From a virus: 64,000 nt of DNA. Positions 9,536-63,990 of the stretch are shown in pieces. The stretch's first letter is position 1; the number at the start of each line of letters is the position of its first letter. Position numbers and translations under genes: made by a program. Below the pieces are notes generated by a model. It did no database searches. It was not told where the DNA came from and was given only the letters and a program-made list of their open reading frames with translations. The stretch spans positions 19,588 through 83,587 of the IMG/VR virus record IMGVR_UViG_3300025280_000026; one strand, 5' to 3'.

Positions 9536-11293
9536 ATGTCTGTTTTGCAAAAGTTGACTGAAGGTCTTGTTAAACGTGATCTCCAGAAGGAAGGTGCTGC
9601 TCTCATGGATAAATGGGAAGCCACAGGTCTTCTTGAGGGTCTTAACAGTGACCACAATAAAAATACAATGGCTCGCTTGCTTGAAAACCAAGCTTCTGAG
9701 CTACTTAGAGAGGCCAGCTCAATGGCAGCTGGTGACGTCGAAGGTTTTGCTTCCGTAGCATTCCCTATCGTTCGTCGTGTCTTTGGCGGTCTTATCGCCA
9801 ATGATCTTGTTTCCGTCCAACCGATGAGCTTGCCTTCGGGCCTCATCTTCTTCATGGACTTCACATACAACGATGGCCGACTCGGCGTCGACTCTGGAGA
9901 TTCCCTCTACGGTGGAGGCGTTGTTGGTAAAAACATCATCAGCGGTACATCGGATATCACTGAAGCAGGCGGCGGGTTCTATAACCTTGCCAACCACTAT
10001 TCTTCGGTTACCGCTTCCGCCGACGTCACCGTGAGCGCTCACGCAACGTCGGGCGACGTCCCGGGCGCTACAGGTGTGGATGTTTCTGCATTCACCGAAG
10101 CCCATAAGAAAGATGTACGTTTTGATGCGGATTTGCTGGCCAACACATCTTACAATGTGCGCCATTACACCATCGATGCTGACGAAGATCTCGAAGGTCT
10201 TAATCATGATGCTCTCGGAGCTATTAATTGGACTAATTTGGGCGACACAACTAATGATAGTGTTGTTCGTCGTTTGACCAAATACGTTCGTAGCACAGGC
10301 CTGGTTCACCTCTATGTCCAAGCTACTGACGGCGCCGGGACCGACGATGCCGGAGGTTCTAAAACAATTGTTTATCCAGTTAAGGATACTTTTAACAAAA
10401 GCAACCTTGGTGCTGTTGTTGGTTCAACCCCGTGGGGACTTGAAGCTGCTGATAATAGCTTCCGTCAATCTGACAACGTTGACTGGGATCAAAATAGTGG
10501 CGCCGGCGACAAGAACAGGATTCCTGAGATTGACATCAAGGTCGACAGCGTGTCTGTCACCGCGATGACCAAAAAGCTCAAGGCCAAATGGACGCCTGAG
10601 CTTGGGCAAGATCTCAATGCTTACCACAACCTCGACGCGGAAGTTGAGCTTACCTCGATTCTTTCTGAGCAGATTGCTCTTGAAATCGATCGTGAGATTC
10701 TCAACGACCTCGTTCAAGGTGCAACCGCTGGTACGTATTACTGGTCTCGTTCACCTGGTTTATTTGTCGATAAGACAGCTGGTACCGAGCTTGGTGCTAC
10801 TGCTGCTGCCCCGGATTTCACCGGTACAGTTAGTGAGTGGTATGAGACACTTGTTGAGACAGTCAACGATGTGTCGGCTCAAATTCACCGTAAGACTCTT
10901 CGCGGTGGAGCCAATTTCCTCGTGACTTCACCAGAGGTTGCCAATATTCTTGAGTTTACTTCTGGTTTCCGCGCTAGTGTTACAGCTGATGCCGATCGTG
11001 GTGTCGTAGGTGCGGTTAAGACAGGTGCGCTTAGTAAGAAATGGGACGTTTACGTCGATCCTTACTTCCCGCGTAATCTTGTTCTTGTTGGTCGCAAGGG
11101 AGGAAGCTTCCTTGAGAGCGGTTATGTATACGCTCCTTACGTGCCCCTGCAAGTCACGCCTACCATCTTTGGTACGGAAGACTTCACGCCACGCAAGGGT
11201 GTGATGACCCGCTACGCAAAGCAGATGGTCCGTCCTGATATGTACGGTCTCGTCGTGGTTCGCGGATTACTTGGTGAGTCTGGCGCAAGCTAG
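9536..11293 (+). CDS. Major capsid protein (gp23-like)
   Basis: HK97-fold shell protein. The 585-residue product has the gp23-type N-terminal region with ARLLENQASELL and the following FASVAFPIVRRVFGGL, then LVSVQPMSLPSGLIFFMDF, and a C-terminal block with VYVDPYFPRN and YAPYVPLQVTPTIF. The N-terminal segment before about residue 60 is the likely region removed on maturation. An AGGAGGAAAT ribosome site precedes the ATG. Codon use is visibly GC-richer than neighbours, as expected for the most highly expressed protein. A strong terminator follows. Confidence 0.96.
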   Translation: MSVLQKLTEGLVKRDLQKEGAALMDKWEATGLLEGLNSDHNKNTMARLLENQASELLREASSMAAGDVEGFASVAFPIVRRVFGGLIANDLVSVQPMSLPSGLIFFMDFTYNDGRLGVDSGDSLYGGGVVGKNIISGTSDITEAGGGFYNLANHYSSVTASADVTVSAHATSGDVPGATGVDVSAFTEAHKKDVRFDADLLANTSYNVRHYTIDADEDLEGLNHDALGAINWTNLGDTTNDSVVRRLTKYVRSTGLVHLYVQATDGAGTDDAGGSKTIVYPVKDTFNKSNLGAVVGSTPWGLEAADNSFRQSDNVDWDQNSGAGDKNRIPEIDIKVDSVSVTAMTKKLKAKWTPELGQDLNAYHNLDAEVELTSILSEQIALEIDREILNDLVQGATAGTYYWSRSPGLFVDKTAGTELGATAAAPDFTGTVSEWYETLVETVNDVSAQIHRKTLRGGANFLVTSPEVANILEFTSGFRASVTADADRGVVGAVKTGALSKKWDVYVDPYFPRNLVLVGRKGGSFLESGYVYAPYVPLQVTPTIFGTEDFTPRKGVMTRYAKQMVRPDMYGLVVVRGLLGESGAS

Positions 11294-32006: not shown

Positions 32007-32009
32007 TGC

Positions 32010-32020: not shown

Positions 32021-32088
32021 ACAGCGATAATCAACCTAGATGTTCAGAAAATTAGCTGGGCATACTATACCAAAAAAGGAGAATTTAC

Positions 32089-32841: not shown

Positions 32842-32850
32842 TTCCAAGAA

Positions 32851-32883: not shown

Positions 32884-32908
32884 ATTTTCATTAATGGGAT
32901 GACGGTTG

Positions 32909-32914
32909 TATAAT
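32909..32914 (+). promoter_or_regulatory. Possible -10 box TATAAT
   Basis: TATAAT preceded by TTG, 35 nt before the DGQHR-type gene. The -35 region is weak, so this is a low-confidence promoter. Confidence 0.35.
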
Positions 32915-32948
32915 AACCAAAATATCCCCTAACTACAAGGAGAATAAA

Positions 32949-38253: not shown

Positions 38254-40110
38254 ATGGAAGTAGCATCAAAGATTTTATCAGATATAGCAGTATACATGAA
38301 ATATGCAAGGTATTTACCCAAAAAGAAGAGAAGAGAAACTTGGCAGGAACTTGTTACGAGAAACAAGAATATGCATTTAAAAAAGTATCCTGACTTAAAA
38401 GATGAAATCGAAGAGAGCTATAAATTTGTTTATGCTAAAAAAGTTTTACCATCAATGCGCTCTATGCAATTCGCTGGCAAACCGATAGAGGTTGCACCTA
38501 ACAGAATATACAATTGTGCCTACCTGCCAATTGATGATTGGCGTTCTTTTAGTGAAACAATGTTTTTGTTGCTTGGTGGAACGGGCGTTGGATATTCAGT
38601 GCAAAAACACCATGTTGAGAAACTTCCAGAAATACGAAAGCCGAACAAGAAGAGAACCCGCCGGTATCTTATTGGAGATTCAATTGAAGGGTGGTCAGAC
38701 TCTATTAAAGTTTTGCTGAGAAGCTATTTCGAGGGCATGTCTGATATCAGATTTGATTTTTCTGATATTAGGCCGAAAGGAAGTCTTTTAATTACATCTG
38801 GTGGTAAAGCTCCCGGCCCCCAACCTCTGAGAGAATGCTTGGTGAAAGTCAAAGGAATACTAGATGAAAAAGAAAATGGCGACAAACTTACGACCATCGA
38901 GGTTCATGATATTGTATGCCACATCGCAGACGCCGTTCTCGCCGGAGGAATCCGTCGCGCAGCTCTCATTTCTCTTTTTAGCGCAGATGATGATGAAATG
39001 CTAGCGTCAAAGGCTGGGAACTGGTGGGAAACAAACCCACAAAGAGGAAGAGCGAATAACTCAGTTGTTTTGATGAGACATAGAGTAACGAAAGAATTCT
39101 TCATGAATATTTGGGAAAGAGTAAAAGAATCTGGCTCCGGCGAACCTGGTTTTTATTTTACCAATGATAAAGATTGGGGGACAAACCCTTGCTGTGAAAT
39201 AGCTTTGAGACCATATCAGTTTTGTAATCTTACTGAAGTCAACGCTAGCGATCTGGAAAGCCAAGAGGAACTAGAAAGAAGAGTACAAGCTGCAGCTTTT
39301 ATTGGCACCTTACAGGCCGGATACACTGATTTTCATTATCTTCGTGATATTTGGCAGAGGACTACGGAAAAAGATGCTCTCGTCGGTGTCTCGATGACCG
39401 GAATCGCTTCAGGCAATGTTCTTGGTTTAGATATGTCTCAGGCTGCAAAAGTTGTTAAACAAGAGAATTTAAGAGTTGCCGGCTTGACAGGGATAAACAA
39501 AGCAGCTAGAACAACAACCGTGAAACCTGCAGGCACAACCTCTCTTACGCTTGGAACCTCAAGCGGTATTCATGCATGGCATAATGATTATTATGTCCGA
39601 CGGATCCGCGTCAACAAAGCGGAAGCGATATACACTTATCTTTCTATACGCCACCCAGAGTTATTAGAAGATGAATTTTTTAGGCCGCACGATACTGCTG
39701 TGATATCTGTTCCGCAAAAAGCACCACCCAGTGGAATTACAAGACAGGAAACAGCACAAAATCTTTTGGAGAGAATCAAAAAGGTTAGCCAGGAGTGGGT
39801 CAAAACCGGCCACAGGCGAGGACAAAATACACATAATGTTTCTGCTACCGTTACGGTTAAAGAAGAAGAATGGAACCACGTTGGCCAATGGATGTGGGAA
39901 AATAGGAGATGCTACAACGGATTGTCTGTTTTACCACATTCAGAACACACATATAAACAAGCGCCCTTCGAAGATTGTTCTCGCGAGAAATATGATGAGA
40001 TGATCAAAACTTTACAAAAACTTGACTTAACAAAAGTGGTAGAGATAGAGGATAATACAACTTTGGCCGGCGAACTTGCTTGTTCAAGTGGCGCCTGCGA
40101 AATAAAATAA
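38254..40110 (+). CDS. nrdJ: Adenosylcobalamin-dependent (class II) ribonucleotide reductase
   Basis: Makes deoxynucleotides using B12 and needs no oxygen. The 618-residue product is a monomeric class II type: an N-terminal redox Cys in RIYNCAYLP (~83-91), the GGTGVGYS loop, a radical-site region NPCCEIALRP at ~311-320, the KPAGTTSL signature at ~428, and a C-terminal swivel CSSGACE with two Cys. Phage class II RNRs are well known. A glutaredoxin gene at 58957 could serve as reductant. It overlaps nothing and follows the helicase by 4 nt. Confidence 0.94.
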   Translation: MEVASKILSDIAVYMKYARYLPKKKRRETWQELVTRNKNMHLKKYPDLKDEIEESYKFVYAKKVLPSMRSMQFAGKPIEVAPNRIYNCAYLPIDDWRSFSETMFLLLGGTGVGYSVQKHHVEKLPEIRKPNKKRTRRYLIGDSIEGWSDSIKVLLRSYFEGMSDIRFDFSDIRPKGSLLITSGGKAPGPQPLRECLVKVKGILDEKENGDKLTTIEVHDIVCHIADAVLAGGIRRAALISLFSADDDEMLASKAGNWWETNPQRGRANNSVVLMRHRVTKEFFMNIWERVKESGSGEPGFYFTNDKDWGTNPCCEIALRPYQFCNLTEVNASDLESQEELERRVQAAAFIGTLQAGYTDFHYLRDIWQRTTEKDALVGVSMTGIASGNVLGLDMSQAAKVVKQENLRVAGLTGINKAARTTTVKPAGTTSLTLGTSSGIHAWHNDYYVRRIRVNKAEAIYTYLSIRHPELLEDEFFRPHDTAVISVPQKAPPSGITRQETAQNLLERIKKVSQEWVKTGHRRGQNTHNVSATVTVKEEEWNHVGQWMWENRRCYNGLSVLPHSEHTYKQAPFEDCSREKYDEMIKTLQKLDLTKVVEIEDNTTLAGELACSSGACEIK

Positions 40111-40132: not shown

Positions 40133-40393
40133 ATGAGACCTTGTAACCGACACATTTTAATTAAACCCATGGAAGAAGAAGAAAAAGAAATTGCGGTATT
40201 GGTGCCTGATAATTTTAGGGCTAAAACTACTTCTTTTATTAAAGCAAGAGTAGTAGACTGGGCAGATGATATAAATATACAAATGCATGAAAATGCTATA
40301 GTCGTCGTTAACTCTAGTATGATAGAAGAGATTGTGTTGGGTGACGAAAAATATCATTTAATACTAGAAAATTATGTTTTAGGCTATTTTTAG
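40133..40393 (+). CDS. GroES-like co-chaperonin (gp31-type)
   Basis: An 86-residue protein fitting the GroES beta-barrel layout: opening MRPCNRHILIKP, a flexible mobile-loop stretch IAVLVPDNFRAKT (~20-32), ARVVDWADD, ENAIVVVNSSMIEEI, and a closing YHLILENYVLGYF. The lid of a GroEL chamber contacts it through the mobile loop. The phage also encodes GroEL at 56571, so this is probably its matched partner, although it may also work with host GroEL as T4 gp31 does. Similarity to classic GroES is remote; the call rests on layout and end motifs. Confidence 0.68.
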   Translation: MRPCNRHILIKPMEEEEKEIAVLVPDNFRAKTTSFIKARVVDWADDINIQMHENAIVVVNSSMIEEIVLGDEKYHLILENYVLGYF

Positions 40394-44319: not shown

Positions 44320-45174
44320 ATGAATATCAATATCAAGACTTTAATAGGCAACACGCCTTTGGTAAAGATCGCAGAAAAGATTTATGCAAAGCTAGAAACG
44401 TATAGCCCATCCGGTTCTATAAAAGATCGTATGGCTTCGTATATTTTGCAGAAAGCAGAAGAAAATGGAGATTTAAAAAAAGGCTATACCATTGTTGAGG
44501 CTTCGTCTGGCAACACAGGTATCGCTTTTTCTATGTTAGCTGCAAACAAAGGCTATGGTTGCATTATAATCATGCCAAAGAATATGAGTGAAGAGCGCAA
44601 ACAAATGATGAAGATGTTTGGTGCCAAGATAATTGAAGTTGGCCATAATGCTTTTAAAAATGCAATAAGAACGAGAGATGAGTTGGTTCACAATTTTGGT
44701 ACGTACTGGTCTCCAATGCAATTTAGCAACAAATACAACATTGAGTGTCACGAAAAGACCACAGCCAGAGAGATACTAGCGCAGGTACCTGAAAATATAT
44801 CTGCATTGATCACTGGTTCCGGCACCGGTGGTACCATTATGGGGTGTCATAATTTTCTATCGGTGAAGTATCCAGGCATGAAAACAGTTCTCGTGAAACC
44901 AGCGGAATCAGCAGAAACTCACGGTATACAGGGTATTAATGATGGCGCTGATTTCTTGTGCGACATGTCAAAAATTGATAGTGTGATAGAAATAACAACA
45001 AAAGAAGCTAAAGAAAGGTCTTGCCGCCTTGCTAAAGAGGATGGACTCCTAGTCGGCATAAGTTCTGGAGCAAACATATCGGCTGCAGAAAAATGGGTTA
45101 AAAACAACAATCCATCTGGTGTTGTGATCACTTTTTTGTGTGATCGTGGCGAAAGATACTTAAGTTGCCAATAA
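44320..45174 (+). CDS. cysK: Cysteine synthase (O-acetylserine sulfhydrylase family)
   Basis: PLP enzyme that makes cysteine from O-acetylserine and sulfide. The 284-residue product has every hallmark: IGNTPLVKI at 9-17, the PLP lysine K35 in SGSIKDRM, EASSGNTGIAFS at ~60-71, the phosphate-binding GSGTGGT at ~166-172 and VGISSGAN near 247. It is slightly shorter than bacterial CysK (~310-320 aa). It is a host-type metabolic gene and sits between a cell-wall enzyme and DnaE, just before a sigma70-like promoter. Whether the phage uses it for cysteine supply, sulfide removal or tRNA/Fe-S needs is unknown. Confidence 0.93.
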   Translation: MNINIKTLIGNTPLVKIAEKIYAKLETYSPSGSIKDRMASYILQKAEENGDLKKGYTIVEASSGNTGIAFSMLAANKGYGCIIIMPKNMSEERKQMMKMFGAKIIEVGHNAFKNAIRTRDELVHNFGTYWSPMQFSNKYNIECHEKTTAREILAQVPENISALITGSGTGGTIMGCHNFLSVKYPGMKTVLVKPAESAETHGIQGINDGADFLCDMSKIDSVIEITTKEAKERSCRLAKEDGLLVGISSGANISAAEKWVKNNNPSGVVITFLCDRGERYLSCQ

Positions 45175-45213: not shown

Positions 45214-48200
45214 ATGCAAAGAGAACTTACAGAACGTACTAAATCAACCATTTCTTTCGTAGGTCTGCACGCCCATAGCGTGGCAGGCTCGCCTTTTGAC
45301 GGATTTGGGTATCCGCATGAACACATGGACTTCGCCTACCAAAACGGCTGCAATGCTTTGGCACTCACTGACCATGGCAATATGAATGGGCTATCTCACC
45401 AGGTTCTGCACGCTAAGAAAATGTGCGAAGAAGGCAAAGACTTTAAGCCAATTTTTGGCGTCGAAGCATACTTTGTTCCTTCAGTTAAAGAATGGAAAAC
45501 AGCATATGAAAAGGCAAAAGAGGATAAAAAAGCAGCTAGGGACTTAGAAAGCGACCCAACAAAAACTGCCAATGAAGACGAAGGCGCTTCCAAACAGAAA
45601 GTTGATAATATCATCCGTCGTAGAAGGCATCTTATCCTTATTGCACAGAACCAAATTGGCCTGAACAATATTTTTAAGATGATCTCAACGTCATTCCAGG
45701 GCGATAATTTTTATCGATATCCTCGCGTTGATTACGATTTAATGAGTAAACATAGCGAAGGTGTTATTGCATCATCAGCTTGCCTAGGCGGCGTCTATGC
45801 CGGTGATTATTGGGATAACCGCGACGATGGAGAAGAAGCTGTTCTTAATGCTATGCGAGAAACTACGCAGCACATGATAGATATCTTTGGTGAAAGATGG
45901 TATGGCGAATTACAATGGAATAATATACCAGAACAACACGCGCTTAACAAATATGTTTTGCGAATGAAAGACGAGTTTGATATCGATGTTATCTCTACCG
46001 CCGATAGTCACTATCCTAGTCCTGATGCTTGGAAAGACCGTGAGCTTTATAAACGTCTTGGTTTCCTTAATAGACCGAAGAAACCCGAATGGATGACTTC
46101 TGAACTTCCTGATGGCGTTGAAGAAATTGGATATGAACTATATCCAAAGAACGGCGATCAGATGTGGGAATCATACAAAAAGTACTCTGAAGAGTGTAAA
46201 ACAGAATATGATGACCAGACGGTTCTTGATTCGCTAACGACAACTCATTGGATCGCGCATCAATTAATTGAAGAGTTTATGCCAGACGATACAGTCAGGC
46301 TTCCAGGGTTTGTTGTTCCTGAAAACCAAACAGCTACACAAGCTTTAGCGCGAGCATGCATCGACGGTTTAACAAGTCTTGATTTACATAAGAAAAATGA
46401 GTATGTTGATCGTTTAAAACATGAACTGCATGTTATCGATGATCGTGGCTTTAGTAAATACTTTTTAACGATGAAGGCCATCGCGGATAAAGCGAATGAG
46501 AATATGTTATCAGGGCCCGGGCGAGGATCCGCCGCAGGTTCGTTAGTCGCTTATGTGCTTAGTATCACGCAAGTTGATCCGATTAAATATGGTTTGTTGT
46601 TCAGTCGTTTTCTTCGCTCTGATACAACAGAGTATCCTGATATTGATTATGATGTCAGCGATGCCTTTGGTTTAAAAGAGATTTTGGCTAAAGAGTGGGG
46701 TGAAACAACAGTTGTCCCAATTTCTAATTTTAATACACTGCAGCTTCGCTCTTTGATTAAAGACATCAGTAAGTTCTATGAAGTCCCATTTGTAGAAACA
46801 AATGCTGTTACCTCGCAGATGATGCATGAAGCTATGCCAAGAGCGAAACAGGTTCATGGTATTAAAGCAGGTGTTTATATCCCAACCTTTGAAGAGATTA
46901 TGGAATATTCAGAGTCCCTTCAGAAATTTCTTAATAAGTATCCACATATTAAGACACATGTTGAAGCTCTCTACGGTCAAGTCCGTTCAACGAGCCGACA
47001 TGCCGGCGGCGTTGTGATCGGCGAAGACTTAGATAAACATATGCCGCTGATTAATTCAGGCGGCGTTATACAGACTCCATGGTCTGAAGGCATGAACGTC
47101 CGCCACTTAGAACCTCTTGGATTTATTAAATTTGATTTGCTTGGACTAACAACGTTAGAAATGATCCAAGGCGCAATTGAACACATCTTGCGAAGGCATC
47201 ATAAAGTTGAGAATCCAACGTTTGAGGAAGTTAAGTATTGGTATGATAAGAATTTACATCCAGATAATATAAACTTCGAAGATAAAGAGGTTTATAGAAA
47301 TATATTTCACAAGGGTAAATTTGTTGGAATATTCCAATTTACAAACGAAGGTGCACAAAAGTTTTGCATGAGGGCAAAACCAAATAATATTATTGACATC
47401 TCAGCTGTCACATCAATTTACCGGCCTGGTCCTTTGAGCGCTGACGTTGACGATCTCTACGTCGATGCCAAAGCAAATCCAAGCAAAATTGTGCACCCGC
47501 ATGAAATTGTTAAGGAAATCACACAAGAGACCGCTGGTTTCTTAATTTTCCAGGAGCAGATTGCTTTGTTGGCTCATAAACTTGGAGAGAATATTTCTCT
47601 TGATGAAGGAAACAAACTACGCAAACTTCTCACGAAGAAAGGCACAGGAGAAAGTGCAAGAGAAAAGAATAAGATTCGTAAAAAGTTTGTTAACGGTTGC
47701 ATGCAAAAGAAGATTGATAAGACAACAGCAGAAGCGATGTGGAAGAAGTTTGAATACTTCTCAGGCTACGGTTTCAACAAATCGCATGCTGTGTCTTATT
47801 CTATTCTTTCTTATCAATGCGCCTGGCTTTTGAATTATTATCCTGCTGAGTGGATGGCTGCGTTTCTTGATAAAGAACCAGAGAAAAGGAAAGAAGCTGC
47901 GATCAATTTGGCACAAAAATACGGCTTTAAGATCGAACCAGTTAATATCAATACTTCAAGTTGGCATTGGGATATTTCTGATGATAGTAAAACGATGATC
48001 CAACCTTTAAGTTCGATTAAAGGTTTGGGCGATAAAGCCATCGAACAAATTATTAATAACCGGCCTTTTAACAACGCTGAAGATTTATTGTTTAACGAGG
48101 ATATTGTATATTCAAAGTTTAATAAAAAAGCGATGGATGTTCTTTGTCGTTGTGGCGCCATGAGAGATTTACTTGATGAGAATTTTACAGGGATGAAACA

Positions 48201-48666
48201 TCTCTGGGCATCATGTATCGCAGATCGCCCGAAGAATAAGAAAAAACTATATGAAAACATAGAACTGTATAGACCAGAGGGAGAATACACAGACGAGGAA
48301 AAGATTGAAAACATCTCTTCACTTACAGGTATTTTTCCAATCAGCCTTGTTATGACACGTGATGTCCGCGATCGTTTGGAACATTATATGGTCCCGCCTC
48401 TAGGCGCCAGAGATCCAGAACTTGGTAATGTTGTATGGTTTATTCCACGAGAAATACTTTCAAAGAAAACAAAGACGGGAAGAACATATTGGATCCTCAG
48501 AGTTATCGATAGTACCTCAACAGTTACAAGTATCAGATGTTGGGGCGTAAAAGAAGGTAAAGACAAACTTCATATTAACAGGCCATACATGGCAAAATTG
48601 GATTATGATCCTGCCTGGGGTTTTTCCACGAAGTCAATAAAGCATAATTTTAGACTTTTAGGTTAA
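45214..48666 (+). CDS. dnaE: DNA polymerase III alpha subunit (family C, DnaE-type)
   Basis: Replicative polymerase. The 1150-residue product equals bacterial DnaE in length (E. coli 1160). The N-terminal PHP domain shows LHAHSVAGSPFDGFG at ~18-32 and LTDHGNMNG at ~49-57. The palm has GPGRGSAAGS at ~433-442 and the catalytic YPDIDYD at ~473-479, followed by DnaE-like FQFTNEGAQ, ITSIYRPGPL-type and GYGFNKSHAVSYS blocks. The C-terminus has a tandem HhH and an OB-type domain. T4-type phages normally use a family B polymerase, so a family C enzyme here is striking. No ribosome site is visible before the ATG and a promoter abuts it, suggesting leaderless translation. Confidence 0.95.
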   Translation: MQRELTERTKSTISFVGLHAHSVAGSPFDGFGYPHEHMDFAYQNGCNALALTDHGNMNGLSHQVLHAKKMCEEGKDFKPIFGVEAYFVPSVKEWKTAYEKAKEDKKAARDLESDPTKTANEDEGASKQKVDNIIRRRRHLILIAQNQIGLNNIFKMISTSFQGDNFYRYPRVDYDLMSKHSEGVIASSACLGGVYAGDYWDNRDDGEEAVLNAMRETTQHMIDIFGERWYGELQWNNIPEQHALNKYVLRMKDEFDIDVISTADSHYPSPDAWKDRELYKRLGFLNRPKKPEWMTSELPDGVEEIGYELYPKNGDQMWESYKKYSEECKTEYDDQTVLDSLTTTHWIAHQLIEEFMPDDTVRLPGFVVPENQTATQALARACIDGLTSLDLHKKNEYVDRLKHELHVIDDRGFSKYFLTMKAIADKANENMLSGPGRGSAAGSLVAYVLSITQVDPIKYGLLFSRFLRSDTTEYPDIDYDVSDAFGLKEILAKEWGETTVVPISNFNTLQLRSLIKDISKFYEVPFVETNAVTSQMMHEAMPRAKQVHGIKAGVYIPTFEEIMEYSESLQKFLNKYPHIKTHVEALYGQVRSTSRHAGGVVIGEDLDKHMPLINSGGVIQTPWSEGMNVRHLEPLGFIKFDLLGLTTLEMIQGAIEHILRRHHKVENPTFEEVKYWYDKNLHPDNINFEDKEVYRNIFHKGKFVGIFQFTNEGAQKFCMRAKPNNIIDISAVTSIYRPGPLSADVDDLYVDAKANPSKIVHPHEIVKEITQETAGFLIFQEQIALLAHKLGENISLDEGNKLRKLLTKKGTGESAREKNKIRKKFVNGCMQKKIDKTTAEAMWKKFEYFSGYGFNKSHAVSYSILSYQCAWLLNYYPAEWMAAFLDKEPEKRKEAAINLAQKYGFKIEPVNINTSSWHWDISDDSKTMIQPLSSIKGLGDKAIEQIINNRPFNNAEDLLFNEDIVYSKFNKKAMDVLCRCGAMRDLLDENFTGMKHLWASCIADRPKNKKKLYENIELYRPEGEYTDEEKIENISSLTGIFPISLVMTRDVRDRLEHYMVPPLGARDPELGNVVWFIPREILSKKTKTGRTYWILRVIDSTSTVTSIRCWGVKEGKDKLHINRPYMAKLDYDPAWGFSTKSIKHNFRLLG

Positions 48667-49780: not shown

Positions 49781-50252
49781 CGAAACAACAGAATTAATGT
49801 TTGCTTCAGGGAAACTAAGTTGGTCTACACCACAAGATTTTTATGACAAATTAAATGAAGAATTAGGCCCATTTACGTTGGACGCCTGCGCGTCGAAGGA
49901 AAATACTAAATGTGAAAAATATTATTCTTTGAAGGATAACAGTCTAAAACAAGATTGGTCTGGTAATACTGTATTCTGTAATCCTCCATATGGAAGAAGG
50001 ATTCAGTACTGGATTAAAAAAGGATACGAAGAATCCTTAAAGAATAACACAAAAGTTGTCATGCTTATCCCATCTAGAACAGACACGAAGTATTGGCATA
50101 ACTATGTTATGAAGGCACAGGAAATTAGATTTGTGAAAGGAAGATTAAAATTTGGTGATTCAAGTAATTCAGCACCTTTTCCTTCAGCAGTTGTAATTTT
50201 TAATTCACAACCATCGCCTTCTATTTCGGCAATACAGAGTAAAGAAAAATAA
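49773..50252 (+). CDS. DNA N6-adenine methyltransferase (phage Dam type)
   Basis: A 159-residue protein of the phage Dam family. WSTPQDFYDKLNEELGPFTL at ~18-37, DACAS just after, and the catalytic NPPYG at ~70-74 match the family; a final KFGDSSNSAPFPSAVVIF closes the fold. It transfers methyl from SAM to adenine, probably to protect phage DNA or mark it. It overlaps both neighbours by a few bases. Confidence 0.9.
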   Translation: MNNETTELMFASGKLSWSTPQDFYDKLNEELGPFTLDACASKENTKCEKYYSLKDNSLKQDWSGNTVFCNPPYGRRIQYWIKKGYEESLKNNTKVVMLIPSRTDTKYWHNYVMKAQEIRFVKGRLKFGDSSNSAPFPSAVVIFNSQPSPSISAIQSKEK

Positions 50253-51286
50253 TGATCCAACAAGATTTTAGAGAAAGTTTATCCTTTGATGATGTTTTGT
50301 TGGTGCCGCAATATAGTGATATTGCAAGCAGAGCGCAGGTTGATATTGGGAGCAGTTTAGACGATAAACATAGATTTAAACTGCCAGTAATTTCTAGCCC
50401 AATGGACACGGTGACAGAGGAAACCATGGCCGTTGCACTTCACAGCGCCGACGCCTTCGGCATTGTACATAGGTATAATTCAATTAACGAACAAGCCGAC
50501 ATCGTTAAGAGGATCCGAGAGAAAAATTCCACTATTCCAGTTGCTGTCGCCATTGGCGCCACCGGTGATTACATCGACCGTGCCGAGAGAATGGTGCATC
50601 TTGGTGTAAAAATATTATGTATCGACATCGCCCATGGTCATCATATAGCAATGGAGCGCGCTATCAAAACCTTAAAAGACAATTATGGACGAAGGGCGCA
50701 CATCATGGCTGGAAATGTTGCGACGTTAGAAGGGTTCAACGCTCTCGCAGAGTGGGGAGCAGATAGTATTCGTGTTGGAATCGGCGGCGGTAGTATATGT
50801 TCCACTAGATTGGTTTCGGGACACGGCATCCCAACTTTGCAAAGTATTATGGAGTGTGCTAGAACACCACATTCAGCAAAAATTATTGCCGATGGAGGAA
50901 TTAAAACTAGCGGCGATATTGTTAAAGCTCTGGCCCTCGGCGCAGATTTTGTTATGGTTGGATCTTTATTCGCAGGTACAAAGGAGACACCAGGAAATGT
51001 TTTTACGTCAAGCAAAGGAAAGAAATATAAAGTCTACAGAGGAATGGCATCAGCGAAAGCACAAGAAGACTGGAGAGGGAAAGCCTCAACTCCAGAAGGA
51101 ATATCCACAACCGTGCCTTATAAAGGGAAGGTTGCTTCTATACTTAATAATCTTTCTGGTGGTATTAGGAGTGGATTTAGTTATTCTGGTGCACGGAATT
51201 TGAAGGAACTGCAAGCCAAATCTAAGTTTATTCGCCAAACATCTGCCGGCCAGCTCGAAAGTTCAACACACGCTATGAGGAGATGA
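50252..51286 (+). CDS. IMP dehydrogenase / GMP reductase family enzyme without CBS domains
   Basis: A 344-residue TIM-barrel enzyme. Hallmarks: LSFDDVLLVPQYSDI at 10-24, the active Cys183 in GIGGGSICSTR at 177-186, and EGISTTVPYKG near 280. IMPDH makes XMP from IMP, feeding guanine nucleotides; GMP reductase works the other way. PEGI-x3-VPYKG and YRGM resemble IMPDH more than GMPR, but the GGG loop is seen in both, so direction is not certain. The CBS regulatory pair is missing (bacterial IMPDH ~490 aa), which would escape nucleotide feedback. It pairs with a PurA-like gene at 62159. Confidence 0.88.
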   Translation: MIQQDFRESLSFDDVLLVPQYSDIASRAQVDIGSSLDDKHRFKLPVISSPMDTVTEETMAVALHSADAFGIVHRYNSINEQADIVKRIREKNSTIPVAVAIGATGDYIDRAERMVHLGVKILCIDIAHGHHIAMERAIKTLKDNYGRRAHIMAGNVATLEGFNALAEWGADSIRVGIGGGSICSTRLVSGHGIPTLQSIMECARTPHSAKIIADGGIKTSGDIVKALALGADFVMVGSLFAGTKETPGNVFTSSKGKKYKVYRGMASAKAQEDWRGKASTPEGISTTVPYKGKVASILNNLSGGIRSGFSYSGARNLKELQAKSKFIRQTSAGQLESSTHAMRR

Positions 51287-54854: not shown

Positions 54855-56507
54855 ATGAAAAAAAGTGTTATCGATAAATTATATGAATTATACAAACCCA
54901 AAGAGAATCTTTCACTTGATTCTCTTTTAGATTTAATCACAGAGCAGATGGTGGTTGTACAAGAGGAAGACCCTCAACCTCAACGCAAATTCAGCGCAGC
55001 GAGAGCTTATAAAACCATTCTTAAATCATTTCAGGCCCCTTCGGAGCAAACGGGTAAAATAGGCACCGATGAAAGAATAAAATTTCAAAAATATGTTTCT
55101 CGCAATATTAGGGGGAATACGCTGGTTGAAAAAATAGCATCAATTAATAAAATTGTCGAGGGCTCTTTTGAAGGTGATCCGAAGATATCTGATATTTTAT
55201 CAGCCCTTGGTGCTATAAAAATGTTGCAACAAACATTAGATGATTTCAACGAGTCAACTGCTGGTTTTCTATTTGAAGCATTTTTATCCGGACTCTTAAA
55301 AGGCAAACAGGTAACCGATAAAGTTGGTGGTACTCTGCCCATTGAGGACTGTATGTTCTTCGTTGACCCCAAAACGGGCGAAGGCGGCCGGCCAGTCAGC
55401 TTGAAATTGCTCAGTCCCAGAACACTCATTGAGGGAAGTCTACAAAATTTGTTAGGATTCTTCGAGCGCGCCAAAATCGCTGCCATTGCCGAGCAAAAGG
55501 GAATTGAATATATTGTTGCAGTTAAAACCTTAAGAAATGAGCTAGATGTGTATTCTTTTAACATCAAACCAAGCAACTTTTTTAACTGGATAGATGAAAA
55601 ATATTTTGATTTTCATGATTATAATATTGAAGGTTCGAATAACTTGATGGAAGAAAAATCTCCAGAGGCCACTGAGACTTCAAAAAATGAGTGGGAGAGG
55701 TTTGCACGTGCCCGCTTGCCGATGATGGGTTTAGACCCGAGACAAACAAAATTTAATTATGATTGGAAACACATTCGCGATTGGAAGAACGTTATTCCTA
55801 TACCATCGAAGAAACGTGCCCTTGTTGCTGCAATTGCTGAAATTATTCTAAGCCCTGCAGGGAAGGACGCATTTGAAAAATGGGCTCTCGGCCAGTTTCG
55901 GCATGCCATACCTCCCGAGAAACTCGCCATCACACCGGAATTGGAGTCGGAGTTTCATTCTGAAGAGCCTGAAGTGCGGCAAAACGCAGCTATTCAAATA
56001 GCTAAAATGGGTGCAGAACGAAGAAGCGCTTACTTGGAATCTATTTTAGGTGTAGCTGAAGGCTTTAGAGAAGACGCCATACATGTCCAAAGGTGGTATG
56101 CTGTTAACACGAAGGGGGACCAAGCGACGTCCTCAGATGTTGTAAGCCATTTAAATGCACTTGTTAAGAGTGGAGACCCGGAGTCCATTAAAAAATGGGC
56201 GAAGATATTAGAAGATCGTCGGAGAGAATCACAGTTTAAGATTCAACCAATTAAAGCGAGATCCTACGGTACGCTTTACGGCACAATTGATGTCAACAAG
56301 AAAAAAATCTATCGTGTGCTTCAAAAGTATAGTGTACAGCTTGAAAAGTTGTGTGCACCAATATATGAAGAGTTAGAAGCCCTCTCTGGTTTCATTAACG
56401 GTTATTATATGCAGAATCGAGTTGGAGATGCGTTTAAAGCGTCAGATTCTGCTAAACGTCTCACTGGTTATACAGAGCAACTAACAGAAAAAACAGAAAA
56501 AGATTAA
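54855..56507 (+). CDS. Large uncharacterised protein, possible nuclease-like fold
   Basis: A 550-residue protein. Residues ~135-220 contain STAGFLFEAFLSGLL, then PIEDCMFF and GGRPVSLKLLSP; the order Glu, Asp, x-Lys within helix-strand-strand is reminiscent of PD-(D/E)xK nuclease folds, but the middle acidic residue is uncertain. The C-terminal half is helical. Similar proteins occur in marine T4-like phages without known function. It lies between the amidase and GroEL. Confidence 0.6.
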   Translation: MKKSVIDKLYELYKPKENLSLDSLLDLITEQMVVVQEEDPQPQRKFSAARAYKTILKSFQAPSEQTGKIGTDERIKFQKYVSRNIRGNTLVEKIASINKIVEGSFEGDPKISDILSALGAIKMLQQTLDDFNESTAGFLFEAFLSGLLKGKQVTDKVGGTLPIEDCMFFVDPKTGEGGRPVSLKLLSPRTLIEGSLQNLLGFFERAKIAAIAEQKGIEYIVAVKTLRNELDVYSFNIKPSNFFNWIDEKYFDFHDYNIEGSNNLMEEKSPEATETSKNEWERFARARLPMMGLDPRQTKFNYDWKHIRDWKNVIPIPSKKRALVAAIAEIILSPAGKDAFEKWALGQFRHAIPPEKLAITPELESEFHSEEPEVRQNAAIQIAKMGAERRSAYLESILGVAEGFREDAIHVQRWYAVNTKGDQATSSDVVSHLNALVKSGDPESIKKWAKILEDRRRESQFKIQPIKARSYGTLYGTIDVNKKKIYRVLQKYSVQLEKLCAPIYEELEALSGFINGYYMQNRVGDAFKASDSAKRLTGYTEQLTEKTEKD

Positions 56508-56570: not shown

Positions 56571-58151
56571 ATGGCTAAGAGCTACGCGCAAGGCAAGGAA
56601 CTACGCGAGAAGATTCTGAAGGGTATCAATATATTGGCTGACAACGTTGCTTCAACCCTCGGCCCAAAAGGGAGAAATGTAATTCTCCATAAAAAAGGTT
56701 CGTCTCCGATGATTACCAAAGACGGAGTTACGGTTGCTAAGTTTGTTAAATTAGAAGATCCATTTGAAAATTTGGGCGCCCAGATTATTAAGCAAGCAGC
56801 ATCAAACACGAACATCTCTGCCGGTGATGGAACAACTACATCGACTGTGTTGGCCCGAGAGATGCTGTTTAAGGCACAGAAGTACATTGCCGCAGGGGCT
56901 AGCCCAATTGACCTCAAAAGAGGCATGGACAGGGCCACAAGTGTTATTATTGAAAAGCTATTAGCTTCCTCAAGACCGGTTAAATCTGAAGAAGATATCC
57001 GACATGTCGCGACATTATCTGCTAACGGCGACAAGACAATCGGTGATATGATCACAATGGCAGTTGATAAAATCGGTAAAGATGGCGCTGTCTCAATTGA
57101 AGAAGGCAAGTCGATGAATACCACTATAGATATTGTGGAAGGTTTCAGGTTTGATTCTGGATATTTTGCACAAGCGTTCGTAACCAACAAGAGAAAACAA
57201 TCGATTAAATACGATGACGTACTCCTTTTGGTTACGAACTATAAAATTGAGTTGTTGGAGGAGATATTGCCCACGTTGGAGGTTGTAGCACGTGAGGGCC
57301 GGCCCTTTATAATCGTCTCAGAGGAGGTAGAAGGCCAAGCGCTGGCTGCATTAATTATGAATACCGTTCGGGGTAGCATGAAAGTTGCTGCTGTAAAAGC
57401 CCCTAGATATGGTCAGGAGCGCAGAAATATCCTGGAGGATTTATGTATCTCCACTGGAGCTACTTTTATCAGCCGTGATTCTGGTATTAAGCTTAAAGAT
57501 GTGAAGCTGAAGCATTTAGGCTCGGCTAAGAAGATTGAGATTCTTAAGAATACCACTACCATTGTTGACGGCAAGGCAGACTGGGAAAAAGTGGAGGAGA
57601 GGATAGAAAGCTTAAAGGAAGAGATAAAACAAACTGAAGATCTAGTAGAATGTGAACGAATTCAAGAAAGAATCACACGTATGTCTAGCGGCGTGGCTAT
57701 AATCAGAGTGGGCGCCCCAACTGAAATCGAAATGATCGAAAAGAAACATCGCATTGAGGATGCCCTCGAAGCCGTGCGTTCTGCTCAACTTGAGGGCACA
57801 GTCCCCGGTGGCGGTGTGGCATTAGTCCGAATTGTACAGAGTTTAGACGTTGAAGTTGATAACGATGATCAAAGGCTAGGTGTTGAAATCATCAAACAAG
57901 CAGCTTATGCCCCGTTAAGACAAATGGCCTTAAATGCAGGAGAATCTTATGATTTGATACTGGCAGAAATTTTGGCCAATCCAGATGGCTTCGGATGGGA
58001 TTTTTCGAATAACACAATTGTTGATATGTACGAGCAGGGTATTATTGATCCTGCGAAGGTTACTCGCAGTGCTATACAGAATGCAACTTCGGTGGCTTCG
58101 ACTTTGATTACAACGAATCACGCGATTGTGGAGATGGCTGATGAAAGTTAA
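56571..58151 (+). CDS. groEL: GroEL chaperonin (60 kDa, phage-encoded)
   Basis: A 526-residue full-length chaperonin (E. coli GroEL 548 aa). Signature GDGTTTSTVLARE at ~85-97, preceding AAGASPIDLKRGMD, the apical VAAVKAPRYGQERRN, the equatorial EGTVPGGGVALVR and SGVAIIRVGAPTEIE blocks are all present in order, so the ATPase and ring fold should be intact. The usual C-terminal Gly-Gly-Met tail is missing (ends VEMADES). In bacterial hosts GroEL folds capsid proteins, and a phage copy may be tuned to its own capsid or baseplate. A GroES-like partner is at 40133. The end overlaps the next gene by 11 nt. Confidence 0.97.
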   Translation: MAKSYAQGKELREKILKGINILADNVASTLGPKGRNVILHKKGSSPMITKDGVTVAKFVKLEDPFENLGAQIIKQAASNTNISAGDGTTTSTVLAREMLFKAQKYIAAGASPIDLKRGMDRATSVIIEKLLASSRPVKSEEDIRHVATLSANGDKTIGDMITMAVDKIGKDGAVSIEEGKSMNTTIDIVEGFRFDSGYFAQAFVTNKRKQSIKYDDVLLLVTNYKIELLEEILPTLEVVAREGRPFIIVSEEVEGQALAALIMNTVRGSMKVAAVKAPRYGQERRNILEDLCISTGATFISRDSGIKLKDVKLKHLGSAKKIEILKNTTTIVDGKADWEKVEERIESLKEEIKQTEDLVECERIQERITRMSSGVAIIRVGAPTEIEMIEKKHRIEDALEAVRSAQLEGTVPGGGVALVRIVQSLDVEVDNDDQRLGVEIIKQAAYAPLRQMALNAGESYDLILAEILANPDGFGWDFSNNTIVDMYEQGIIDPAKVTRSAIQNATSVASTLITTNHAIVEMADES

Positions 58152-58470
58152 AATAAGTTATTCCGTGGACATTGAGGAAATACCAGAAAAGGTTCATTGT
58201 ATTTTAGAGGAAGTTAAGAAGGAATTAACACACTTATCTGGTAGGATCCCTGCCGTCGTCAGCACGAATTTGCATGGCGAACAATATGTAGAATTAAGAC
58301 AAGAAATTGACCAAGTTAGAAAAAAACTTTTTATTGCTGATTCTAAACTAGAAGATAGTCTTTTAATATTGGACGATTGGAAACGTGTGACCTTGGCTTT
58401 AGAAGTTGAGAGAACGACATTGATTAACGAACCCAAGGAGGCAGAAAAAAATGTTGAAAACAGCGAATAA
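58141..58470 (+). CDS. Hypothetical coiled-coil protein after GroEL
   Basis: A 109-residue protein; ATG 58141 lies inside the last codons of groEL. The N-terminus is a beta-rich stretch (KVKISYSVDIEEIPEKV), then a charged helix-rich coiled coil (~45-100). No family recognised. The overlap suggests co-translation with GroEL; it may be an accessory of the chaperonin, which is speculative. Confidence 0.7.
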   Translation: MKVKISYSVDIEEIPEKVHCILEEVKKELTHLSGRIPAVVSTNLHGEQYVELRQEIDQVRKKLFIADSKLEDSLLILDDWKRVTLALEVERTTLINEPKEAEKNVENSE

Positions 58471-58956: not shown

Positions 58957-59208
58957 ATGGAAAAATACTTATTGTTTATTATTGATGAATGTTCTTTCTG
59001 CACAAAAGCGGTCCTTCTATTGGAAAAACATTTTATAATTTATAAAACAGTTGACGTCACTGATGATTTGAATACCCGAGTTCAGATTAAAGAAGCGTTT
59101 GGATGGAACACTTTTCCTATTATTTTGAAGCAAGATAAAAATACGTTTAATTTGATAGGAGGATACACGGATTTAGAAAAATATGTGGGGGCTTATGACA
59201 CAAAGTGA
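58957..59208 (+). CDS. Glutaredoxin
   Basis: An 83-residue glutaredoxin/NrdH-type thioredoxin fold: active CSFC at ~12-15, cis-proline in TFPIIL at ~52-57 and GGYTDLEKYV near 68. It probably supplies electrons to the class II ribonucleotide reductase at 38254 or reduces other targets. AGGAGG precedes the ATG. Confidence 0.9.
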   Translation: MEKYLLFIIDECSFCTKAVLLLEKHFIIYKTVDVTDDLNTRVQIKEAFGWNTFPIILKQDKNTFNLIGGYTDLEKYVGAYDTK

Positions 59209-59648: not shown

Positions 59649-60083
59649 ATGAACAACACTGCAATAAGTAATTATCGTACAAGCCTATTGGGTTGGAACG
59701 TTTTTGATGATATCTTTAATTCTATGCCCACAACGTGGATGAAGAGAACAACTGAGGGTTATCCGGTGGCCGACATTTACCGCGATGATGGGGGGGACAC
59801 TATTATGGAATTCGCACTCGCCGGCTTTCAGAAAGAAAATTTACATGTCGAAATACTCCCAGAAAAAAGGGAGATTCACGTAAGCTCAGACTCGCACGGT
59901 GATGAGGAGAAGCCAGGTTTTAACAGTCGTCGTATCGCACGCAGGACTTTTCATAAGACCTACGTCAACTACGACAATAATTTAGATCTAAGCGGCGCCA
60001 CAGCTGAGTTCAAAAATGGACTTTTGCGCTTGGTTTTACCGCAAAGGCCAGAGGCAGAAGCTCTAAGGGTTGAAATTAAATAA
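59649..60083 (+). CDS. Small heat-shock protein (Hsp20/alpha-crystallin)
   Basis: A 144-residue protein; AAAAGGAG precedes the ATG. The alpha-crystallin domain runs from ~40 to ~130: PVADIYRDDGGDTIMEFALA, then AGFQKENLHVEI, SRRIARRTFHKTYV, and the closing NGLLRLVLPQRPE, where the G-L-L-R-L-V pattern (family A-x-x-x-n-G-v-L) is clear. Hsp20 keeps unfolding proteins soluble and hands them to GroEL-type machines. It is common in aquatic T4-like phages. A terminator follows. Confidence 0.95.
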   Translation: MNNTAISNYRTSLLGWNVFDDIFNSMPTTWMKRTTEGYPVADIYRDDGGDTIMEFALAGFQKENLHVEILPEKREIHVSSDSHGDEEKPGFNSRRIARRTFHKTYVNYDNNLDLSGATAEFKNGLLRLVLPQRPEAEALRVEIK

Positions 60084-60275: not shown

Positions 60276-60935
60276 ATGCCTGTTATGCGAAAAGCTAACT
60301 ACATGCTAGTATTTGGCATGTGCAATTTACTTATTTACTTCCTTATCCAAAGTTACGTTTCCAATGAGTATAATTTCATGACCCCTCTGGACCGGTCAAT
60401 TCCATTTATGCCCGAGTTTGTTTGGATTTATCAAAGTTTATTACCAGTTATTGCTTTAACAATGGTACTTCTAGTTAAATCCAAACGGCTTTTTTTCAAT
60501 ACTTTTTGGGCATGTCTGCTGGCAACCTTCATAATACACATGTTTTGGATCTTTTTTCCTTCGTTTTATCCAAGGCCAGAGATCAACCCTGAAAGTTTAT
60601 CCGAAATAGTAGTACAAATGTCATATGATATAGACAATTCATCTAATACTTTCCCTTCCGGCCATGTGGCCTTCGCGTGGATAATGCTATTCGGAGCTAG
60701 AAAAAGCACGAAGGCAAAGGAAATTTTAGGTCTAAGTCGTTTATATTTTCTTTGGGCAGCCGGCGTTACATTATCAACTTTGGTAATCAAAATGCACTAT
60801 GTGGTTGATGTAATAGGCGGCCTCGCCGTAGCGACCTTTTGTTTTTATATAGTTGGGTGGTTGATTAGAAGATTTAACTGGTACCCAGTTGTGGACACTA
60901 GTTATCATAATGAAGACTTACAAAATAATAACTGA
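60276..60935 (+). CDS. PAP2-family membrane phosphatase
   Basis: A 219-residue membrane protein with about six hydrophobic segments. The PAP2 motifs are present: PSGH at 127-130 (within NTFPSGHVAFAW) and KMHYVVDVIGG at 172-182 with His174 and Asp178; the conserved Arg of the SR motif is replaced (STLVIKMH). PAP2 enzymes cleave lipid phosphates such as undecaprenyl pyrophosphate or phosphatidic acid. In a phage it could alter envelope lipids, cell-wall precursor supply or O-antigen assembly. GAGGGAAG precedes the ATG at 60276. Confidence 0.82.
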   Translation: MPVMRKANYMLVFGMCNLLIYFLIQSYVSNEYNFMTPLDRSIPFMPEFVWIYQSLLPVIALTMVLLVKSKRLFFNTFWACLLATFIIHMFWIFFPSFYPRPEINPESLSEIVVQMSYDIDNSSNTFPSGHVAFAWIMLFGARKSTKAKEILGLSRLYFLWAAGVTLSTLVIKMHYVVDVIGGLAVATFCFYIVGWLIRRFNWYPVVDTSYHNEDLQNNN

Positions 60936-61407
60936 TGAAAGAATACTAAGAAACCCTTGCAAACCGTGTGAAACCGTTAAAGAAGGAAACGACATCGGTC
61001 ACATATTAAAGGTTATGCTTGATAAAAGCACCGATGGCGTAGGCCTGGCTGCTAATCAGGTAGGCATACAAAAGAGTGTTTGTCTAATCAACGTTAAGGA
61101 GCCAATCGTTCTAGTTAATCCTGAGATTGTGGGCAAGTCTGGCAAATTTCTTTATAAGGAGGGTTGTCTTTCTTTTCCAGGTGAGTATATTATAACTGAG
61201 AGGTATAAAAACATCGTGGTGAAAACCGATAATCATAAAAATTTGATTACTTTCTCCTCTGAAACCAAAGAGGATATGTTAGAATGCGCATGCGTCCAAC
61301 ATGAAATTGATCATTTAAATGGTAAAACGATGTTCGACCGCGCGCCTCCGCTAGCATCGCGAAAAACTGCGGATTTATTAATAAAAGGTTTAAAAAATGG
61401 CAAATAA
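60910..61407 (+). CDS. def: Peptide deformylase
   Basis: Removes the formyl group from new proteins. The 165-residue product shows all three motifs: GVGLAANQVG at 43-52, EGCLSFP at 84-90 and QHEIDHLNG at 130-138, giving the Cys and two His metal ligands and the catalytic Glu. Start ATG 60910 lies inside the PAP2 gene and beats an upstream GTG. Phage deformylases are known from aquatic phages. Confidence 0.94.
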   Translation: MKTYKIITDERILRNPCKPCETVKEGNDIGHILKVMLDKSTDGVGLAANQVGIQKSVCLINVKEPIVLVNPEIVGKSGKFLYKEGCLSFPGEYIITERYKNIVVKTDNHKNLITFSSETKEDMLECACVQHEIDHLNGKTMFDRAPPLASRKTADLLIKGLKNGK

Positions 61408-62111: not shown

Positions 62112-62136
62112 ACAACTGGTGATGGGTGTTTATAAT
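62109..62136 (+). promoter_or_regulatory. Sigma70-like promoter before PurA-like gene
   Basis: TAGACA (62109-62114), 16-bp spacer, TATAAT (62131-62136), overlapping the stop codon of the previous gene and about 22 nt before the ATG at 62159. Confidence 0.6.
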
Positions 62137-62158
62137 ATGTTTAGACGAAGGAGTCACA

Positions 62159-63160
62159 ATGCGAGCTGATATTGTTGTTGGCGTTCAAGCTGGTGATGAA
62201 GCAAAAGGTAAAGTAACACACCATTTGTGTAAAAATGGAACTTATACTCATGTCTTACGCTTCAACGGAGGTTGCAACGCTGGTCATACTATTTACCACG
62301 AAGGTAGAAAATTTGTTACGCACCACATTCCAGCAGGGGTTTTTTATGGTATTAAATCCATAATTGGTTCGGGATGTGTTGTAAGTGTAAAACAATTCTT
62401 TAGAGAATTAAAAGAAATTAAAGAAGGAGGAGTAGAAGTAGATGGAAAAGTTTTTATTGCTAGAAACGCTCATATCATTACTAGCGAGCATCTTGAACAA
62501 GATGGTAGAGATAGTTGTATCGGTACAACAAAGCGCGGAAACGGCCCTGCTTATCGCGACAAGTATAACCGCACAGGAATTTTAGCTGAACATCATCCCG
62601 ACTTAAAACCCTTTCTCGTTGATCTATATGAGGAGTTCCACGAAAAAGGCCCTGTTGAGATTTTGTGCGAAGGCGCCCAGGGATTTGATTTGGACATCGA
62701 CTGGGGAGATTATCCTTATGTCACATCCAGTCACTGTACCTCTGCCGGCGCCCTTCTGAACGCTATTCCGCCTGGTTGGATAAGGAATATTTGGGGCGTT
62801 GCAAAAATATATGAAACTTACGTCGGCGCAAAAGAGTTTGAGACAAATGATCCAGTTTTCCCTTTGCTAAGAGCATATGGTGAAGAATACGGTGCGACCA
62901 CCGGACGGCCTCGTCAATGCAATTGGCTTAACATAGATAAGTTGTCTAAGGCTCTTAGAATTAACGGCGTGAATAGATTGGTTATAAATAAAATGGATGT
63001 GATGAGAAAGTTGGGTCAATGGACACTAATTAAGAATGGGAAGGAAAAACATTTTGGAAGCGAGCTAGAAATCAAATCATTTCTGGCCAAACATCTTTCT
63101 AATCCTTCAGCTAAAAGCTCGCTGTTGCTGTATTTTTCAGGCAACAAACACTCTATCTAG
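62159..63160 (+). CDS. purA: Adenylosuccinate synthetase (PurA-like, short form)
   Basis: Adds aspartate to IMP to make adenylosuccinate, using GTP. The 333-residue product shows GDEAKGK at 12-18 with Asp13 kept, NGGCNAGHT at 36-44 with the catalytic His43, GTTKRGNGPAYRDK, and TSSHCTSAG. It is shorter than bacterial PurA (~430 aa) and near the length of archaeal or phage forms. I believe PurZ enzymes of diaminopurine phages lose the Asp at this position, so this looks like PurA; but specificity cannot be proven from sequence alone. ATG 62159 follows AAGGAG, better than an upstream ATG at 62126. Confidence 0.9.
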   Translation: MRADIVVGVQAGDEAKGKVTHHLCKNGTYTHVLRFNGGCNAGHTIYHEGRKFVTHHIPAGVFYGIKSIIGSGCVVSVKQFFRELKEIKEGGVEVDGKVFIARNAHIITSEHLEQDGRDSCIGTTKRGNGPAYRDKYNRTGILAEHHPDLKPFLVDLYEEFHEKGPVEILCEGAQGFDLDIDWGDYPYVTSSHCTSAGALLNAIPPGWIRNIWGVAKIYETYVGAKEFETNDPVFPLLRAYGEEYGATTGRPRQCNWLNIDKLSKALRINGVNRLVINKMDVMRKLGQWTLIKNGKEKHFGSELEIKSFLAKHLSNPSAKSSLLLYFSGNKHSI

Positions 63161-63379: not shown

Positions 63380-63456
<77 letters not shown>

Positions 63457-63475
63457 TAATAAAAGGAGAAATACA

Positions 63476-63649
63476 ATGGCTGAATCAAGAATTACAAATA
63501 AAGAATTACAGGCTCAAGTTCAAAGCTTGAACACAAGGCTAGGCAAAATGGTCGATGACTTTTATGTTTTGAAAGAAGACATTGGTCAATTCAAGGCCGC
63601 CGTGGCTGATGATATACGCAAAGTCCTTAAAATTACCAATAAAAAATAA
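63476..63649 (+). CDS. Small coiled-coil hypothetical protein
   Basis: A 57-residue protein between two tRNAs; ATG 63476 after AAAAGGAG. The in-frame GTG at 63422 would run through tRNA-Arg, so it is rejected. Two charged helices (LQAQVQSLNTRLGKMVDDFY and on). Function unknown. Confidence 0.65.
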   Translation: MAESRITNKELQAQVQSLNTRLGKMVDDFYVLKEDIGQFKAAVADDIRKVLKITNKK

Positions 63650-63650
63650 A

Positions 63651-63723
63651 GGGCTTGTAGCTCAATGGTTAGAGCTACCGGCTCATAACCGGTAGGTTCC
63701 TGGTTCGAGTCCAGGCGGGCCCA
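63651..63723 (+). tRNA. tRNA with CAT anticodon (elongator Met or lysidine-modified Ile)
   Basis: 73 nt; acceptor GGGCTTG pairs with CGGGCCC, anticodon loop CTCATAA, no encoded CCA. A paired first base (G-C) argues against an initiator tRNA. Confidence 0.92.
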
Positions 63724-63730
63724 CTAACTT

Positions 63731-63803
63731 GCTGATGTAGCTCAACTGGTAGAGCAGCTGATTTGTAATCAGCAGGTTGTAGGTTCAAGTCCTGTCATCA
63801 GCT
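63731..63803 (+). tRNA. tRNA-Thr (anticodon TGT)
   Basis: 73 nt; acceptor GCTGATG pairs perfectly with CATCAGC; anticodon stem GCTGA/TCAGC with loop TTTGTAA. No encoded CCA. Reads ACA. Confidence 0.94.
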
Positions 63804-63814
63804 TAGGAATATTA

Positions 63815-63863
63815 ACCGAAGTGGTGGAATTGGCATACACAAGAGACTTTATTTATAAAGCGT
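63815..63863 (+). pseudogene. Truncated tRNA-Leu-like 5' half
   Basis: ACCGAAGTGGTGGAATTGGC and following bases match the 5' half (acceptor, D-arm) of a class II tRNA such as the intact tRNA-Leu at 63905, but the anticodon region (CTTTATTTATAAAG) is distorted and neither a variable arm, a T-arm nor a 3' strand complementary to ACCGAAG (CTTCGGT) is seen before the next tRNA. Probably a decayed duplicate. Confidence 0.5.
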
Positions 63864-63904
63864 TATGCAAAATCTAGCATTGAAATATAATCTAAATGAG
63901 TTAT

Positions 63905-63990
63905 GCGGGTATGGCGGAATTGGTATACGCAAGGCACTTAAAATGCCTCGATCTTTGATCATGCCGGTTCGAGTCCGGCTACCCGTACCA
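63905..63990 (+). tRNA. tRNA-Leu (anticodon TAA)
   Basis: 86 nt with an encoded CCA: acceptor GCGGGTA/TACCCGT (one G-T), anticodon stem GGCA/TGCC with loop CTTAAAA giving TAA, long variable arm, T-loop TTCGAGT. Reads TTA. Confidence 0.94.

Follow-up and report, generated by a model that had tools for sequence, protein, structure and literature searches.

The T4 co-chaperonin gp31 has a GroES fold without the roof loops and is essential for gp23 folding (PMC6318259, PMC3012670), the absence of these loops being believed to aid folding of the larger gp23 (PMC6318259). In comparison with T4 gp31 and RB49 CocO, the phage analysed here differs in that it also supplies GroEL, whereas T4 relies on that of its host. 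The phages EL, OBP and AR9 encode GroEL-like ATPases which work without a co-chaperonin (PMC9598537), as single rings in OBP and AR9 and as double rings that separate in EL (PMC9598537, PMC5934643); most long records of the clade described below, in contrast, encode GroES. Both components are present in the T4-related Vibrio phage Pv27 (PMC12063606; OR413349), and chaperonin genes also occur in Southern Ocean viruses (PMC8407431). The part of Nishimura et al. 2017 drawn on here describes group I GroEL in viruses of MGII archaea and in Flavobacteriaceae phages, and in that part these GroELs are not described in phages with a T4-type head (PMC5332604). The Flavobacterium phages immuto and elemo likewise encode both GroES and GroEL. 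Chaperonins of the virioplankton are reportedly treated by Marine et al. 2017 (ISME J). The first-pass annotation of the present locus had regarded a full phage GroEL as known chiefly from a handful of jumbo phages, a view which did not survive the search: 276 phage records with GroEL were found, some of them bacterial contaminants, and the known examples include the pairs in Pv27, immuto and elemo. As virus-encoded GroEL and GroES are already known, the novelty of the locus had been overstated; the clade to which it belongs is a distinctive variant of the known ocean-virus chaperonins rather than a novel type of system, and it may well be among the ocean-virus chaperonins already seen.

The window, the whole stretch of DNA analysed, covers 64 kb out of the 83.6 kb of a phage record in IMG/VR. 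This record is probably a fragment of a larger genome, as those of its relatives reach 158–203 kb. Its initial description as T4-like applies to the virion module, composed of terminase, portal, gp23-type head protein and sheath, and to UvsX and a phage single-strand binding protein, but not to replication, for which the window encodes a bacterial-type DNA polymerase III alpha (DnaE, 1150 aa; 45214-48666) and an adenosylcobalamin (B12)-type ribonucleotide reductase (RNR; 38254..40110, plus strand). The gp23-type major head protein (9536..11293, plus strand) is 585 aa in length with a computed mass of 62.7 kDa and corresponds to PHROG 138 (4.2e-73). The window also contains a cysteine synthase-like gene (44320-45174; TIGR01136, 4.1e-84, under the cut-off), an unusual sulphur-metabolism gene for a phage, and an IMP dehydrogenase/GMP reductase-like gene (50252-51286) that is found 5' of groEL in many relatives as well. 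The best PHROG match of an adenylosuccinate synthetase-like gene (62126-63160) is a '2-amino' (PurZ-type) family (8.8e-65), whereas among NCBIfam models its protein matches PurA (2.3e-77) better than PurZ (5.2e-35), both under the cut-off. A phage genome with modified adenine (Z-genome) would be one possible reading of this gene. The IMP dehydrogenase/GMP reductase-like and PurA-like genes suggest control of the purine pool. Four tRNA genes (Arg, Met, Thr and Leu) are clustered by the window end at 63380-63990.

groEL (56571..58151, plus strand) is an intact open reading frame with an ATG start and AAGGAG 5' of it, encoding a 526-aa group I chaperonin. The protein is matched by Pfam Cpn60_TCP1 (PF00118; 1.4e-68, 232 bits, cut-off 34.3), by PHROG 5725, chaperonin GroEL (3.6e-142), and over its full length by the group I model TIGR02348 of NCBIfam (618.9 bits, curated cut-off 582.1), bearing out the original identification of a complete phage GroEL. 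The predicted structure has the three-domain GroEL fold (pLDDT 89.5), with TM-scores to Hsp60/GroEL of up to 0.94. The protein ends in VEMADES without a Gly-Gly-Met (GGM) tail, as had been noticed at the outset. Such a tail is usual but not universal in group I chaperonins. All 81 clade members possess only 2–10 residues past the last core strand and no GGM-like tail was detected among 46 clade representatives; the tail is also absent from several other phage GroELs and from some Planctomycetota and Agrobacterium copies, which rules out its absence as a special trait.

A scan with the window GroEL identified relatives on 106 viral contigs, of which 80, being 53–82% identical, were kept, while identity to GroELs of bacteria, plasmids and named phages reached at most about 48%. 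In a tree of 76 GroELs, one branch with a support of 100 and a long stem (0.86) split off the 47 clade-set members, window included, with no bacterium inside, although some clustering is expected because the window protein had served as query in assembling the set, and the bacterial sample covered few phyla, without Bacteroidota, Cyanobacteria, Chloroflexota or Marinimicrobia. The phage-specific clade anticipated by the first-pass annotation is thus recovered.

The residues of the ATPase site are fully conserved within this clade, T30, G32, P33, K51, D52, G53 and G86-D87-GTTT being invariant in 81/81 members, as are the ATP/Mg-binding and catalytic residues D398, G414, G416 and D495. In contrast to the conserved catalytic site, inter-subunit contacts are altered. 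In E. coli GroEL, inter-subunit salt bridges are formed by D83-K327 and R197-E386. The window GroEL has I82 and S196 at the positions equivalent to D83 and R197, and both residues are lost (no D/E at 83 and no R/K at 197) from 75 of the 81 clade sequences and from 44 of the 46 representatives. The representatives had been chosen at <75% identity, with the two nearest copies added. All 24 bacterial GroELs, conversely, retain D83 and, at position 197, either R or K. The bridge partners persist in the clade, E386 being invariant and the K327 position always K or R. Further changes affect the apical domain, where Y203, a substrate contact in E. coli, is replaced by Ala, Ser, Gln, Thr or Lys in 79/81 members and V264 by Met in 73/81, with the other residues of the groove (Y199, F204, L237, L259, N265 and a hydrophobic 263/264) retained. 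At the ring interface E461 is replaced by Ser (71/81) and S463 by Asp (74/81), while R452 and K105 are mostly retained. D359, which lines the cavity wall in E. coli GroEL, has given way to Leu, Ile or Met in 78 of the 81 members.

In E. coli, the D83A/R197A substitutions remove two inter-subunit salt bridges and effectively detach neighbouring apical domains (PMC10723157), and the resulting GroEL has been termed allosterically compromised (PMC5941174). The same two residues are missing in the phage clade; however, the E. coli protein is a laboratory double mutant, whereas the phage losses are natural and accompanied by other changes that may compensate. The predicted monomer resembles the relaxed structure of the D83A/R197A mutant (4ki8; TM 0.90), GroEL-ATP and the nucleotide states of Hsp60 (0.91–0.94) more closely than apo GroEL (0.75–0.76). 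This is no more than suggestive, and the conformation chosen by AlphaFold may reflect model bias and not a preferred state. A narrow literature search found no published description of salt-bridge loss in phage GroELs, and what appears to be new here is the clade-wide loss of D83 and R197 in combination with a full set of ATPase residues and with a GroES that, like gp31, has no dome-roof segment.

The candidate partner is an 86-aa groES-like gene (40133..40393, plus strand) located immediately 3' of the RNR gene, whose product carries the putative mobile-loop triplet V22-L23-V24 followed by P25. By itself the window protein matches Pfam Cpn10 under the cut-off (E = 0.0074), but 18 of 20 members of its family, taken from GroEL-positive phage records, match this model, with a best value of 3.1e-10, and a profile built from the family hits co-chaperonins of solved structure at 1.6e-10; both tests are partly circular because the members other than the window protein were first recruited through Pfam Cpn10. 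Two checks depend less on this circularity. The window GroES is 49–52% identical to its counterparts in the two GroEL-positive phages that are nearest, and when its structure was predicted from an alignment of 45 sequences (pLDDT 83), the top 35 PDB hits were co-chaperonin chains and nothing else; the highest query TM-score among them, 0.67, was that of T4 gp31 (1g31). In 45/45 sequences the loop carries three consecutive hydrophobic residues and then an invariant Pro, the model being least certain at residues 11-30. On sequence and predicted structure, then, the 40133 gene genuinely encodes a GroES with the beta-barrel fold of co-chaperonins, in agreement with the first reading of it as GroES-like with a plausible mobile loop, and not a protein of unrelated fold. 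Compared directly with E. coli GroES by itself, the family profile gives a weak match (probability 2.4%), and tblastn with the window GroES alone returned no match among named phages. The segment in which E. coli GroES carries its roof hairpin numbers 15 residues in 30/45 sequences, compared to 23 in E. coli, and is longer than 15 in some members; E. coli Tyr71 aligns with Met in 44/45 (M63 in the window), the register being that of the alignment. The roof segment is shortened in Pv27 and elemo GroES as well, so that the shortening may be a general trait of GroES proteins from phages.

Among described systems, Pv27 is one of the closest. Like the window phage, Pv27 (~191 kb) has a gp23-type head, groES and groEL genes located apart, a GroEL without GGM and a GroES without the roof segment. 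Unlike the clade, its GroEL groups with gammaproteobacterial GroEL, retains D83, R197 and Y203, and is ~41.6% identical to the window GroEL.

groES and groEL lie ~16 kb apart in the window and do not form an operon. Each is embedded in a conserved neighbourhood, RNR being ≤3 kb from groES in 72/83 loci, and homologues of the 550-aa protein encoded immediately 5' of groEL (54855..56507, plus strand) being close to groEL in 70/80 loci, with the family directly upstream in 63. The 550-aa gene marks a conserved groEL gene block. An Hsp20-family small heat shock protein (59649..60083, plus strand; Pfam HSP20 1.4e-06, PHROG 432 9.1e-14) constitutes an additional phage chaperone close to groEL, and peptide deformylase and glutaredoxin genes (60889-61407 and 58957-59208, respectively) are also located by the chaperone genes. 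GroES was present in 32 of the 46 viral records examined and in 8/8 GroEL-positive records >100 kb. In the reverse search, GroEL was found in 19 of 33 GroES-positive records >25 kb and in five of the seven >100 kb. One of the latter without GroEL, at 127 kb, ends beside the usual upstream marker gene of groEL, which explains the apparent absence. In a second record (G077, locus L198; 161.7 kb) the GroES family is present and GroEL was not detected, possibly a natural GroES-only case as in T4; owing to this record, GroES and GroEL are not strictly tied. In an 84-kb GroES-positive record (G066, locus L177) GroEL is split into two reading frames at 31994-33492, by a frameshift, a sequencing error or decay. 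The divergence of GroES is correlated with that of GroEL (Mantel r 0.43, p 0.0004), a correlation that shared descent alone may explain. groEL and groES are core genes of a large, mostly marine phage lineage, in which they have been passed on vertically over a long period.

We consider it likely that, with these genes, the phage produces a complete group I chaperonin that is driven by ATP, has its own GroES as lid and forms a dedicated chamber for phage clients. In the proposed cycle, GroEL rings, presumably heptameric and either single or double, would take up non-native phage protein, and ATP binding would lift their more loosely coupled apical domains; with fewer inter-subunit contacts to break, these domains would rise and encapsulate the client more readily. 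The phage GroES would then cap the phage GroEL via its hydrophobic triplet, producing a dome whose lack of a roof would give extra room, as with gp31. By analogy with T4, the main client is probably the 62.7-kDa gp23-type capsid protein, which would be made in bulk late in infection. As the phage brings both GroEL and GroES, it would require neither component of the host. A more specific proposal, that the clade represents a naturally 'unlocked' GroEL, stripped of both apical salt bridges in evolution, in which greater independence of the subunits, fast encapsulation and a roofless GroES are suited to a single oversized capsid client and not to an entire proteome, is put forward tentatively and regarded as possible but doubtful.

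The alternatives differ in what each gene product would act upon. In one, the phage GroEL works alone, as do the chaperonins of EL, OBP and AR9, which require no co-chaperonin (PMC9598537), and the phage GroES acts on host GroEL in the manner of gp31. The separation of the two genes, the alteration of Y203 in most of the clade and the 162-kb record with GroES but no detected GroEL are consistent with such a division. However, the window protein is a bona fide GroEL scoring above the TIGR02348 cut-off and far from the PBS1 type (PBS1 is ~24% identical to it), the remaining residues of the apical groove are retained, nearly all long records hold both genes with correlated divergences, and the 127-kb GroEL-negative record stops beside the upstream marker gene, so that we regard independent action as unlikely. 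Alternatively, the phage subunits could act on the host machine, either in mixed rings or in a regulatory or dominant-negative takeover role, in line with the changes seen at inter-ring (E461S, S463D) and inter-subunit contacts. A full-length protein with a full catalytic site and its own GroES argues against this, and an identity of ~44–48% to bacterial GroEL makes mixed rings unlikely; overall, this role seems quite improbable. A third component had also been suspected by the first-pass annotation in a coiled-coil-like ORF (58141..58470, plus strand; 109 aa) whose ATG at 58141 creates, exactly as had been described, an 11-nt overlap with groEL (58141-58151). Its homologues are close to groEL in 55/80 loci, but lie immediately 3' of it in just 14/80, another small gene intervening in 47/80, and no convincing family match was obtained in Pfam, PHROG or NCBIfam. 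This ORF is probably not a chaperonin component, and a three-part machine appears hardly credible.

Contamination, or a very recent gain from a bacterium, would have its sole indication in a single 62% match in a WOR-3 (Caldifarciminota) MAG 'chromosome', CP070664.1 (L119). This match resides on a 12.3-kb phage contig (201219-213537) that lies exactly between 100-N spacers and is therefore a binned contig; several phage genes besides groEL are shared as well. The spacers rule out WOR-3 as a demonstrated host and the stretch as an integrated prophage. The clade GroEL was absent from 119 other Caldifarciminota genomes, and genuine GroELs of this group are just 43–48% identical to that of the window. 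A phage-type GroES at the start of CP070664.1 (about 830-1108) suggests that a second phage contig was binned there, and anyone working with this genome should expect binned phage sequence in it. The window GroEL does not group tightly within one bacterial genus without phage copies, but belongs to the single viral clade with its support of 100 and its conserved phage neighbourhood. The probability of contamination or recent bacterial gain is accordingly negligible, and within the data searched this origin is refuted.

Concerted movement of the GroEL ring is usually viewed as central to serving a whole proteome. A clade that retains the full ATPase but lacks the apical ties, and which probably serves one or a few clients, would constitute a natural experiment on allostery. 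Because the window phage supplies both components, questions that arise in T4, namely the need of gp23 for gp31 as opposed to host GroEL, become separable. Such a clade would show which parts of GroEL allostery serve folding itself and which serve generality.
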